In this document: piece after piece, positions 24,604 to 55,363 of the stretch | How the letters are laid out: every line of letters begins with the position of its first letter | How positions within the stretch are numbered: the stretch's first letter is position 1 | Source: Sandaracinus sp. | GTDB lineage: Bacteria; Myxococcota_A; Polyangia; Polyangiales; Houyiibacteriaceae | Direction: 5' to 3' | DNA: 55,363 nt | Assembly: GCA_002699025.1 (NCBI GenBank) | Contig: PABA01000207.1 | Span: 1-55,363 of the forward strand | The notes under the pieces: generated by a model | Seen by the model: only the letters and a program-made list of their open reading frames with translations | What the model was told of the DNA's origin: nothing | Databases searched by the model: none | Made by a program: the position numbers and the translations under genes

Positions 24604-25302
24604 CTACCAGCGGAGCCAGCGGCCCTCGGCCTCGTCGTAGGCGAGCGTCAGCTCCGTGTCGTCCTCGGTGCGCACGCGGAAGCAGACGAGGTGGTCCCCG
24701 GCCAGCCCGCCGGCCTCCTCCCAGCGCCCGAGCACGTGCGCGATCGCATGCCGCTTCCCCGACTCGGTGAAAGAGACGGGCGCGAACTCCCAGCCGACGG
24801 CCTCCCGCACGCTCACCTCGAGCTCGAGCTCCGGGTCCCAGGTCGGCACGCTCAGCCCAGCCTCTTCCCGGAGCCGCTGCACCGCCCGCTCCATCCCGTG
24901 GAGCACCCGCTGGTCCGCGCCGCCCGAGGCCACGATCACCACCAGCAGGTATCCGTCGTCGAGGCGGCGCAGCACGATGTCCCGCTGATCGCCGTTCACC
25001 TCGAGCATGGCCGGCTCCCCCGCCCCCACCTTCTCGGCGAAGCCCCTCACGGTGAAGAGGATGGCCTGCATGTGCGCGCCGGCCACCTTCGCGTCGAAGG
25101 GCGGGAGCGACGAGCAGTAGTCCACGCACTCCCCCTCCGGGTCCACGAAGACCGCCGCCATGACATCGGGCTCGTTCGCCCAGAGCTCCCGGAGGATCGG
25201 CGTGAAGGTGCTCTCCCCCTGATCGCGCTCCGCCTCGTCCAGCGGGGAGCGGAAGACGTGGACCGAGTTGCGGCGAGGCCGCGGGTGGCGCCCGCTGGTC
25301 AC
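24604..25302 (-). CDS. Roadblock/LC7-like protein
   Basis: A 232-residue protein. Residues about 25-140 resemble the Roadblock/LC7 fold used by small-GTPase regulators such as MglB: LRELWANEPDVMAAVFVDPEGECVDY, AHMQAILFTVRGFAEKVGAGEPAMLEV, and DIVLRRLDDGYLLVVIVASGGADQ. The C-terminal 90 residues form a separate alpha/beta region of unknown type. The GTG start overlaps the stop of the parvulin gene (GTGA), and the kinase gene follows after 46 bases, so it probably belongs to the same signalling unit. No GTPase gene is nearby. Confidence 0.78.
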   Translation of the reverse strand: MTSGRHPRPRRNSVHVFRSPLDEAERDQGESTFTPILRELWANEPDVMAAVFVDPEGECVDYCSSLPPFDAKVAGAHMQAILFTVRGFAEKVGAGEPAMLEVNGDQRDIVLRRLDDGYLLVVIVASGGADQRVLHGMERAVQRLREEAGLSVPTWDPELELEVSVREAVGWEFAPVSFTESGKRHAIAHVLGRWEEAGGLAGDHLVCFRVRTEDDTELTLAYDEAEGRWLRW

Positions 25303-26231
25303 GAGCCGAGATCCCACTCGGCGTGGAGCGCCGCCTCGATGGCCTCTTCCCGCCGGTCGACGCCGAGCTCCTCCTGGAGTCGCCCGACGAGCTGGACCAG
25401 CGCCCCATAGCGCGCCCGCTTGGCCATCTCCTCGCGTACCAGCGCCTCCGCCTGGGCGAGCTCGGGCTCCACCCCGGGCTCGATCCGCTTCAGCACGATC
25501 GCGTGCCAGCCGTACTGGGTCCGCGCCGGCTGGGGGAGCGCCCCGGGCGCCTCCGCGGCGAAGAGCGGGTCCTCGAAGCCCGCGTCCAGCCCCTGACCGC
25601 GCGCCACCGCCGGCACGGCCTCGGTCAAGAGCTCGAAGCCCTCGAGGCGCTCGAGCCCGCGGTAGCGCGCGATGGCCTCCGGGGAGCGCGCGAGCTCCCC
25701 GGCGATCGCCGCCGCCACGGCCCGCGCCCGCTCGTCCTCGGCGCTCCCCTCCGCCGTCCCTTCGGGCAAGCGCACCAGGACGTGCTCGGCCTCCCGCCGC
25801 TCCGGCCGCCCGAAGCGCTCGGCGTGCGCCTCGAAGAAGTCCCGCACCTGCTGCTCCGAGAAGGACTCGGGCGGGTGCTCCGCCTCGATCTCCGCGAGGA
25901 GCGCCTGCACCAGCGCCTTCTCCCCCGCCCGCCGCACGGCCGCGCCCGTGCCGTAGCCACGCCGCGCCGCCTCCGCCGCCAGGAGCGCCTCGTCCTGCAG
26001 CGTCCGGAGCGCCTCCGCCGGCGAGCTCCCCGCCCCCGCGGCCTGCTCCTGCACCTCGGCGAGCGTGATGGGCGCGCCATCGACGGTGCTCACGACCTCG
26101 CCGCCGATTTCGGCGTCGCCGCGCATCTCCGGCTCGCCCCTCGGCGCCTCCGGGACGTCCCCGGGGCCGCAGCCGAGCGGCAGGGCGGACGCGATGAGCG
26201 CGACGAGGGTCAGGGCGATGCCCGCCCGCAC
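25299..26231 (-). CDS. Parvulin-type peptidyl-prolyl isomerase lipoprotein
   Basis: A 310-residue lipoprotein if started at the GTG 26231. Lipobox ALPLGC (Cys21). Residues about 45-140 are SurA/PrsA-like helices (VVSTVDGAPITLAEVQEQAA, SFSEQQVRDFFEAH). The parvulin core runs from REAEHVLVRLPEG (about 150) to ARTQYGWHAIVLKRIE (about 255), with the conserved GWH. It probably folds secreted proteins at the envelope. The frame remains open through a 15-bp tandem repeat upstream in which most units carry a GTG with GGGGAG at good spacing, so the N-terminus may be heterogeneous. It overlaps the Roadblock-like gene. Confidence 0.82.
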   Translation of the reverse strand: MRAGIALTLVALIASALPLGCGPGDVPEAPRGEPEMRGDAEIGGEVVSTVDGAPITLAEVQEQAAGAGSSPAEALRTLQDEALLAAEAARRGYGTGAAVRRAGEKALVQALLAEIEAEHPPESFSEQQVRDFFEAHAERFGRPERREAEHVLVRLPEGTAEGSAEDERARAVAAAIAGELARSPEAIARYRGLERLEGFELLTEAVPAVARGQGLDAGFEDPLFAAEAPGALPQPARTQYGWHAIVLKRIEPGVEPELAQAEALVREEMAKRARYGALVQLVGRLQEELGVDRREEAIEAALHAEWDLGS

Positions 26232-26407
26232 GGTGTCTCCCCGCACGGTGCCTCCCCGCACGGTGTCCTCCCAAACGGTGCCCCTCCGCACGGTGTCCTC
26301 CCGCACGGCGTCTCCCCGCGCGGTGTCCCCCCGCACGGCGTCTCCCCGCGCGGTGTCCCCCCGCACGGTGCCTCCCCGCACGATGCCCCGCCGCACGCCG
26401 CTCACTC
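26228..26407 (-). repeat. 12-copy, 15-bp tandem array of Shine-Dalgarno plus GTG units
   Basis: Twelve units begin at 26228, 26243, 26258, 26273, 26288, 26303, 26318, 26333, 26348, 26363, 26378 and 26393, in perfect 15-bp register. On the minus strand a typical unit is GTGCGGGGAGACACC, so GGGGAG lies five bases before the next GTG. In the lipoprotein frame it encodes a V-R-G-D/G-T pentapeptide repeat. Two kinds of variant unit (GCG or GTT in place of GTG) are interspersed. Confidence 0.9.
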
Positions 26408-26581
26408 CCCCGTCGACGGGCGCAAGAGCTCCACCGCCGCGCCGAGCAGCGCCAAGCCGATCACCACGAGCACGATCGCGGCCACGTAGTCGTGTCCCCG
26501 GAGCTGGAGCACGCCGTGGAAGAGGGTCGCCGCCGCGGAGAGCAAGAGCAGCCCCCCCGAGCCCTCGCGCAGCCAGCTCAA
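26402..26581 (-). CDS. Small two-pass membrane protein (TTG start)
   Basis: A 59-residue frame read from a TTG at 26581, preceded by GGGAG with seven-base spacing. The sequence begins MSWLREGSGG, then hydrophobic LLLLSAAATLFHGVLQL, a polar turn RGHDY, and a strong second helix VAAIVLVVIGLALLGAAVELL, ending RPSTGE. Codon use and hydrophobicity fit a real gene rather than the competing frame. It sits between the FHA activator gene (61 bases upstream) and the SD-GTG repeat array before the parvulin lipoprotein. Function unknown. Confidence 0.65.
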   Translation of the reverse strand: MSWLREGSGGLLLLSAAATLFHGVLQLRGHDYVAAIVLVVIGLALLGAAVELLRPSTGE

Positions 26582-34740: not shown

Positions 34741-34804
34741 CGGGTCGGCGCATCGACGGGCACGGCGCGCCCGCACCGCCCCGACCACGGCGGACGCCCC
34801 CGCC

Positions 34805-34972
34805 CACGCGTCCTGCGGACGCCCCCACGCGTCCTGCGGACGCCCCCACGCGTCCTGCGGACGCCCCCACGCGTCCTGCGGACGCTCCCACGCGTCCTGC
34901 GGATGCCGCCACGCGTCCTGCGGACGTCCCCACGCGTCCTGCGGACGTCCCCACGCGTCCTGCGGACCCCGG
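34805..34972. repeat. 21-bp by 8 tandem array with ACGCGT in each unit
   Basis: Copies of the core cacgcgtcctgcgga start at 34805, 34826, 34847, 34868, 34889, 34910, 34931 and 34952, with a perfect 21-bp period and only a few base changes, all in the six bases that separate cores. Each copy carries the palindrome acgcgt. The period equals two turns of B-DNA, so all cores face one side of the helix. Confidence 0.95.
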
Positions 34973-43739: not shown

Positions 43740-43789
43740 GCGGTGGGTGAAGCCTGCGTCCGTTGGTTGGGCACGTTTGAACACCGCTC

Positions 43790-43871
43790 GTTGAACACCG
43801 CCCGTTGAACACCGCCCGTTGAACACCGCCCGTTGGGCACCGCTCGTTGGCCACCGCTCGTTGGCCACGGG
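43790..43871. repeat. 14-bp by 6 tandem array
   Basis: Units of gttgaacaccgccc start at 43790, 43804, 43818, 43832, 43846 and 43860; the last three are gttgggcac, gttggccac and gttggccac variants. Being 14 bp, the unit shifts frame in every copy, so it is not a coding repeat. It ends 34 bases before the phosphatase ATG. Confidence 0.92.
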
Positions 43872-50764: not shown

Positions 50765-51321
50765 ACGCCGAGGCGAAGCCGAAGGAGCCGCGGCGCCTCT
50801 CGACGCCGCTCGTGCTCGCCCTCACCAGCGCCATGATCTGCGTGGGCGTCGCCGGCTTCCTCCTGCGCGGGGGCCCCGAGCCCGAAGAGCAGCCGGCCGA
50901 CACGCTCCCCGCCATCGTGGTCGACGACACGACGCCCGAGCGCGCCGCCGAGTCCTTCCTCGACGCCTGGCGGCGCCGGGAGCACGAGGTCGCCGCCGAC
51001 CTGAGCGTGGGCGAGGCGCGGGCCGCCGTGGATGAGCGCGCCGCCCGGGACGCCGCCATGAGCGACCACGAGCGCGAGCTGAAGCGGCAGGTCTGGGACG
51101 CCATGGCCGCCGAGCGCCTCGGGCTGGCGATCCGCGAAGCCGAGCAGCTCGAGGGCGGCCGCATGGCGCTCCGCGGCATCGCCGAGGGCACCTTCCTCGA
51201 CCAGCCCTACGAGCGCGAGATGGAGTTCGTGCTGCGCCCCGAGGCCGAGGTCTGGCGCGTCGAGGGCTTCCACTTCGGGGAGATCCTCACCGAGGTGCCG
51301 CGCCTGCTGGAGCTGGAGTGA
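50761..51321 (+). CDS. Single-pass membrane protein with periplasmic NTF2-like domain
   Basis: A 186-residue protein read from a TTG that overlaps the HAD stop (TTGA). A short cytoplasmic start (MNAEAKPKEPRRLSTP) leads to a transmembrane helix (LVLALTSAMICVGVAGFLL). Residues about 55-186 resemble an NTF2-like/DUF4878 domain (PERAAESFLDAWRRREHEVAADLSVGEARAAVDE; EMEFVLRPEAEVWRVEGFHFG). Function unknown. The 3' end of the gene runs into the 14-bp repeat at 51312-51367. Confidence 0.7.
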   Translation: MNAEAKPKEPRRLSTPLVLALTSAMICVGVAGFLLRGGPEPEEQPADTLPAIVVDDTTPERAAESFLDAWRRREHEVAADLSVGEARAAVDERAARDAAMSDHERELKRQVWDAMAAERLGLAIREAEQLEGGRMALRGIAEGTFLDQPYEREMEFVLRPEAEVWRVEGFHFGEILTEVPRLLELE

Positions 51322-51367
51322 GCGGGCTGGAGTGAGCGAGCTGGAGTGAGCGAGCTGGAATGACCGA
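51312..51367 (+). repeat. 14-bp by 4 repeat carrying stop, ribosome-site and start signals
   Basis: Units of gctggagtgagcg(a/g) start at 51312, 51326, 51340 and 51354. The first contains the stop codon of the upstream gene; the last contains the ATG of the methyltransferase at 51360; GGAG in each unit is a ribosome-site sequence. Since 14 bp is not a multiple of three, each copy resets the frame. Confidence 0.9.
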
Positions 51368-52157
51368 CCCGGAGACCACGCGTGTCGGGAGCCAGGCCCA
51401 CTACGAGGACCCGGCCTACTACGACCAGGCCTACCGCCGGCGCCGCGAGGACGTGCGCTTCTACGCCGACCTCGCCGAGGCACGCGGCGGCCCCGTGCTG
51501 GAGCTCGGCTGCGGCACCGGCCGCGTGAGCCTCGCCCTCGCCGAGCGCGGCGTCGAGGTGCTCGGCGTCGACGCCATGGCGCCCATGCTCGAGCGGGCCG
51601 AGGAGCGCCTCGCCAAGCGCCCGGCCCGGGTCCGCGAGCGCGTCGCTTTCCGCCGCGGGGACCTCCGCGCGCTCCGCCTGAAGCGGCGCTTCCCGCTCGT
51701 CATCGCGCCCTTCAACGTCTTCATGCACCTCTACACGCGCCGCGACGTCGAGCGCGCCCTCGCCACCGTGAAGCGCCACCTCCGCCGCGGCGGCCGCTTC
51801 GCCTTCGACGTGCGCATGCCCGACGCCCGCGAGCTCGCGCGCGATCCGGAGCGCGTCTACAAGGCCGGCAAGGTCACGCGGCCCGAGACCGGGCGCCGCT
51901 ACCACTACCGGGAGCGCTTCGCCTACGATCCGGTCGATCAGATCCAGACCATCGAGATGGCCTTCGTCGGCGACGGCGACCCGCTCGACTTCCACCTGAC
52001 GCCGCTCACGCACCGGCAGTTCTACCCCGCCGAGCTCGAGGCGCTCTTGCACTACAACGGCTTCACGCTCCTCGAGCGCTGGGGCGACTTCGAGCGGGGC
52101 CCGCTCGACGAGGCGAGCGAGAGCCAGGTGCTCCTCTGCCGCGCCCGCGGGAAGTGA
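51360..52157 (+). CDS. Class I SAM-dependent methyltransferase
   Basis: A 265-residue methyltransferase. The SAM-binding loop is LELGCGTGRVSLALAERG (about residues 46-63), followed by VLGVDAMAPMLERAEERL and a typical LVIAPFNVFMHLYT strand. The C-terminus holds beta strands with HLTPLTHRQFYPAELEALLHYNGF. Such proteins are often named for small-molecule or ubiquinone/menaquinone-like methylation, but the substrate is not visible. The ATG is in the last unit of the 14-bp repeat, 39 bases after the upstream stop. Confidence 0.85.
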   Translation: MTDPETTRVGSQAHYEDPAYYDQAYRRRREDVRFYADLAEARGGPVLELGCGTGRVSLALAERGVEVLGVDAMAPMLERAEERLAKRPARVRERVAFRRGDLRALRLKRRFPLVIAPFNVFMHLYTRRDVERALATVKRHLRRGGRFAFDVRMPDARELARDPERVYKAGKVTRPETGRRYHYRERFAYDPVDQIQTIEMAFVGDGDPLDFHLTPLTHRQFYPAELEALLHYNGFTLLERWGDFERGPLDEASESQVLLCRARGK

Positions 52158-55073: not shown

Positions 55074-55363
55074 GTGGAGCCCGAGCGGGAGCGGGAACGG
55101 CTGCGGGAGCGCCAGCGCGAGCCCGAGCCCAAGGAGGAGCAGGAGCGCAAATCGGAGCGGGAGCTCGAGCCCGAGCCCAAGCAGGAGCGGGAGCTCGAGC
55201 CCAAGCGGAAGCGCGAGCCCAAGCGGAAGCGCGACCCCAAGCGGAAGCGCGACCCCGAGCCCAAGCAGAAGCGCGAGCGACAGCGCGAGCGACAGCGCGA
55301 GCGACAGCGCGAGCGACAGCGCGAGCGACAGCGCGAGCGACAGCGCGAGCGACAGCGCGAGCG
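55074..55363 (+). repeat. Low-complexity repeat run at the right edge, 12-bp unit gcgagcgacagc
   Basis: From about 55074 the frame with codons starting at multiples of three is open and encodes only charged sequence (EREREL, KRKRDP, then RERQ repeats). From 55272 onward it is a 12-bp tandem repeat, gcgagcgacagc, at least seven copies, cut by the edge. It could be the start of an Arg/Glu-rich protein or a simple minisatellite; no upstream ribosome site or start is convincing. Confidence 0.6.

Follow-up and report, generated by a model that had tools for sequence, protein, structure and literature searches.

The locus examined here raises the question of why a lipoprotein gene should begin in a tandem array whose units mostly resemble a ribosome-binding site followed by a start codon, and what such an array does. 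It lies in a window of 55,363 nucleotides, the whole stretch of DNA that was analyzed, which is contig C218 of the Sandaracinus sp. genome under study (G000, an assembly of 9.24 Mb; other G numbers denote relatives). The gene encodes a parvulin-like peptidyl-prolyl isomerase lipoprotein (25299..26396, minus strand) with a match to Pfam PF13145 (Rotamase_2, E 6.8e-10) and, in NCBIfam, a weak NifM-like match that falls far under its cut-off. The array consists of twelve 15-bp tandem units at 26217..26396 on the minus strand, running from U1 (26396-26382) to U12 (26231-26217), as delimited by Tandem Repeats Finder (TRF) and by reading the sequence. The unit consensus read in this way, GTGCGGGGAGACACC, encodes VRGDT-like pentapeptides. 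TRF reports the array at 26225-26397 as 15 bp x 11.5 with 0% indels (score 206), with a second solution of 30 bp x 5.8 (score 234). In translation, the units read VRRGI VRGGT VRGDT ARGDA VRGDT ARGDA (U1-U6) and VREDT VRRGT VWEDT VRGGT VRGDT VRAGI (U7-U12). Directly 3' of the array, the translated sequence continues as ALTLVALIASALPLGC (26169..26216, minus strand), the hydrophobic core of a signal peptide that ends in the lipobox ALPLGC.

A preliminary description of this DNA had reported twelve 15-bp units in perfect register, and this is borne out by the absence of indels and by the single frame that all twelve units share. Its placement of the array at 26228-26407 is about 11 bp off the GTG register, which spans 26217-26396. 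Whole-unit gain or loss would preserve the frame, as was also proposed, since a 15-bp period cannot shift it. The array is too regular for chance, and arrays as such are common in G000.

In nine of the twelve units, a GTG stands in frame with the lipoprotein; U4 and U6 carry GCG instead, and U9 carries GTT. A GGAG, GAGG or AGGA core precedes the GTG by 3-9 nt in eight of these nine units, so the earlier observation that most units combine a Shine-Dalgarno (SD)-like tract with a GTG at workable spacing in the lipoprotein frame holds; at U12, for example, GGGGAG lies five bases 5' of the GTG. Pairing of the tracts before array GTGs with the anti-SD sequence ranges from -5.6 to -11.0 kcal/mol, whereas predicted genes have a median of -5.0, and the SD-GTG pairs mostly reach at least the 80th percentile of genome starts. 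The eight in-frame pairs and their strength favor a multi-start module, in which ribosomes would enter at several of the SD+GTG units while slippage by whole units tunes expression or the length of the signal-peptide n-region, and a simple duplication is disfavored by internal SDs whose strength exceeds the genome median. We nevertheless consider such a module rather unlikely, in part because the three units with no start codon retain tracts that are equally strong (-9.4 to -10.0 kcal/mol). The SD-likeness is therefore largely a property of the G-rich unit and is not tied to the start codon.

The junction with the upstream gene helps to locate the original start of the lipoprotein gene. A gene for an FHA-GAF-sigma54 activator is followed by one for a membrane protein of about 59 amino acids (26402..26581, minus strand), which has no Pfam match and no NCBIfam match. 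This small gene is co-directional with the lipoprotein gene, and its TGA stop (26404-26402) abuts the array, 5 nt before the GTG of U1. The last codons of the small gene contain a conserved SD-like GGGGGAG (26405..26411, minus strand; pairing -8.6 kcal/mol). In orthologous loci, the lipoprotein gene is likewise preceded by this small membrane-protein gene, whose end is GGGGGAG-TGA or a near variant of it. This junction is found as GGGGGAGTGATG in G016, G011 and G007, as GGGGGAGTGACGTTTG in G044 and as GGGGGAGTGAGCGCGTG in G049, and the start codon overlaps it or directly follows. The comparison covers related genera, as the 57 relatives include no genome of the same genus and a scan of contigs found none either. 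No orthologue from these genera has an array at the lipoprotein start, where the same junction was inspected. A shared junction that lacks the array in the orthologues implies that the GTG of U1 is the ancestral start site. The array is then a lineage-specific in-frame expansion within the n-region of the signal peptide, with eleven extra units before the hydrophobic core. U1 (VRRGI) and U12 (VRAGI) are alike, as expected if an ancestral MRRGI-ALTLV start was expanded. This lipoprotein family does include long n-regions: that of the G011 orthologue is rich in Arg and runs for about 30 residues up to the hydrophobic core. The array had been described as lying directly upstream of the gene; it does adjoin the signal-peptide core, but with U1 as the ancestral start it extends the n-region from within the gene.

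The array is thus probably a lineage-specific minisatellite that arose by slippage or duplication and is tolerated in the n-region, with its multiple starts incidental. This reading builds on the direct observations of the anatomy of the array, its absence in orthologues and the abundance of arrays in G000. Slippage or unequal recombination most likely multiplied the opening 15 bp, comprising the start codon of the gene and four further codons. As the unit that was duplicated is rich in G and includes the start codon, most copies resemble a ribosome site plus GTG. The expansion would have been tolerated as the frame is kept and the added residues belong to the n-region of a lipoprotein signal peptide, which is cleaved off. 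Main initiation probably still occurs at the ancestral GTG of U1, behind the conserved GGGGGAG, and additional initiation at later GTGs could bring the start nearer to the hydrophobic core. A start at the GTG of U1 gives 365 amino acids and adds a 55-residue tail, whereas one at the GTG of U12 (26231) gives 310 and yields an ordinary signal peptide.

A census of arrays (TRF score at least 80, at least 3.5 copies) was performed on 1.63 Mb, or 17.6% of the 9.24-Mb assembly, using gene calls from a home-made codon-usage gene finder, so that gene starts are predicted ones. The 194 arrays found (79 coding, 108 intergenic and 7 mixed) have periods mostly of 12-18 bp, and the period is divisible by 3 in 78/79 coding arrays versus 55/108 intergenic ones. 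Their density in G000 is about one per 8 kb (0.123 per kb), roughly twice the 0.055 per kb of the sampled G044. Coding arrays in the G000 census cluster near protein ends. Perfect register was rejected as a mark of translation, with 11/26 coding arrays being indel-free versus 12/40 (p 0.43).

The units of these arrays are diverse in sequence. Across 177 arrays, likeness to the lipoprotein-array unit is slightly above that of shuffled units: excluding the lipoprotein array itself, 11 matches are observed 4 times versus 1.95 expected and 10 matches 16 times versus 10.85. A dispersed family with a shared unit was rejected, as the similarity of units between arrays is near chance. These results also bear on the reading of the array as a set of binding sites, either for a CsrA-type translational regulator on the repeated GGA or for a DNA-binding protein on CACCGYG. 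GGA and CACCG motifs are indeed repeated, and the pattern CACCGYG..GGRR..CACCG marks several arrays in G000, with 37 matches versus 1 for the reversed pattern, an excess that is circular, as those very arrays served to design the pattern. Given in addition the near-chance unit similarity in the unbiased census, the differing periods (14 and 15) and an RNA folding that is weakly above shuffles (z -1.75), we regard binding sites as extremely unlikely.

Several further arrays were noted in the window and elsewhere in G000. At 51310-51374 (plus strand), a 14-bp array of GAGCTGGAGTGAGC x4 lies where two co-directional genes meet; each unit carries GGAG and a TGA stop, the next gene seems to start at the ATG that ends the array, and the 14-bp period cannot preserve the frame. 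Another 14-bp array, TTGAACACCGCCCG x6.2 at 43777-43863 (plus strand), separates two co-directional genes and lies some 40 bp ahead of the next predicted start. An intergenic 21-bp array at 34803-34967 (CCCACGCGTCCTGCGGACGCC x7.9, 95% matches) contains the inverted repeat GCGTCCTGCGGACGC. The window itself ends within a long tandem array of AGCGCGAGCGAC and variants (55114-55363, plus strand), which is probably the reason that the contig stops. Similarly, two other contigs end in a 15-bp array of GGGAAGACACCGCGC (L161 8514-8619 at the end of C58 and L162 1-92 at the start of C27); these are probably parts of a single array that separates two co-directional genes and was split by an assembly break, and its units have no start codon. 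Three 15-bp units at L077 6404-6447 (PSRRA VSRRA FLRRA) look like a repeated twin-arginine motif in a signal peptide of the Tat type.

An in-frame start codon is also repeated before a signal peptide at four further sites in G000 (arrays or duplications), on contigs C61, C165, C162 and C148. The SD motif is repeated as well in two of the four, at C61:149000-149078 (unit GGGGAGCACCGTGAT x5.3; MGCTVTGSTVMGSTVMGSTVTGRLVPPLALALTLL) and at C165:30357-30434 (unit ATGGAGGACACCGCG x5.2; MESTAMEDTAMEDTAMEDTAMEGTA...MLLALAAACG), both of which begin at a TGATG stop/start overlap. C148 has a two-copy duplication of SD+ATG before a lipoprotein signal. A hydrophobic N-terminal segment follows all of the start-site arrays, versus 37% of genes generally. 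Under random duplication of a start-containing 15-mer, 7-31% of arrays (mean 14%) are expected to have every start preceded by an SD, and the observed frequency among start-anchored census arrays is 3/4, or 2/3 without the lipoprotein array, in a set that is tiny, includes two members found by the SD criterion and relies on gene starts from a home-made script. The comparison is suggestive of a modest excess of SD-bearing start arrays over the expectation of a simple duplication model. The similar layouts at C61, C165 and C148, all before signal peptides, are the second point in favor of a multi-start module.

Other start regions argue in the opposite direction. At C162, the start units (MTLRR) are repeated with no SD at all, and the SD+start combination is missing from many arrays near gene starts in G000. 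The array at C61 is missing from orthologues of its gene that share 62-75% identity. Two consecutive 15-bp SD+RTG units show no excess over a reversed control in G000 (3 vs 5 and 6 vs 6) or in relatives. G016 contains a near-identical SD-spacer-GTG array (GGAGACACCGTGGTG x9) that is out of frame with any gene. The preliminary description had called for a search of related genomes for 15-bp SD+GTG repeats at gene starts; among matches with called genes, this gave no clear start-site array, and most lie in or antisense to coding sequences or are intergenic and out of frame. The idea of a dedicated regulatory family is not sustained, given arrays at about one per 8 kb with unrelated units, a pattern no more frequent than its reversed control and the out-of-frame array in G016. 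A further candidate on C61 (L043 19291-19378) was rejected as a start-anchored array, as its open reading frame probably starts earlier at a TGATG. This 15-bp array codes for (VPPLG)n and seemingly is itself the hydrophobic core (h-region) of a lipoprotein signal peptide.

The translated product could also matter in its own right, for instance if the VRGDT-like N-terminus slows export or engages a partner ahead of signal-peptide cleavage. The frame is open through all twelve units from the ancestral start, and G000 has other N-terminal pentapeptide arrays. Differences among the units mostly change amino acids (V/A, R/W, G/E/R, G/D and T/A/I), however, and do not favor third codon positions among the twelve units compared; the orthologues have no such tail. 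The array's score against the GETHR pentapeptide repeat (PF05671) is 20.0 bits, below the Pfam gathering cut-off of 22.4. A functional tail is, on this evidence, very unlikely.

Comparison with known systems places the array closest to the minisatellites or VNTRs of bacteria, which are likewise built of short head-to-tail units, in frame when coding, and lineage-specific. Its 15-bp head-to-tail units fall in the range of about 10-60 bp and are absent at orthologous sites. It differs from a typical minisatellite in including the start codon and in having an SD-like tract in most units. Mycobacterial interspersed repetitive units (MIRUs) are described as short, mobile repeats whose internal ORF is coupled at -4 nt; they occupy start codons where genes lie close together, and there they carry initiation signals and disturb expression little (PMC12548453). 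The lipoprotein array also sits at a start codon between closely spaced co-directional genes, but its 15-bp units are arranged head to tail, are mostly unrelated between loci and show no sign of mobility; where MIRUs are one conserved dispersed unit, the units of other G000 arrays are about as similar to this one as shuffles are. TAACTGA direct repeats precede the start codons of many genes in Beggiatoaceae and others, as a fixed heptamer of little SD character that usually ends just before the start codon (PMC4679880). These are also short tandem repeats at a ribosome-binding region, whereas the unit here is not that heptamer but a locus-specific 15-mer that contains an SD-like tract and a start codon. 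In Neisseria modA, simple repeats at the 5' end with alternate initiation codons shift the frame and switch expression on and off (PMC2667262). The lipoprotein gene shares the 5' repeats and more than one possible start codon; its 15-bp units cannot shift the frame, which sets it apart from frame-shifting phase-variable genes. A search of one open-access library found no precedent for a tandem unit that holds both an SD-like tract and a start codon in whole codons.

Copy-number tuning of the lipoprotein gene is possible. That the arrays form a recurrent class in initiation regions at operon junctions before exported proteins, acting as slippage-adjustable rheostats rather than on/off switches, appears quite improbable. 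If the internal starts are used, the array would parallel repeat-based phase variation in a graded form that is safe for the frame. It would do so in the n-region of exported proteins, where extra residues either do no harm or are cut away. Such arrays can mislead the annotation of start sites, as with the 365 versus 310 amino acids of this lipoprotein. Even if the array is neutral, it shows that in-frame minisatellites can reside where exported proteins start.
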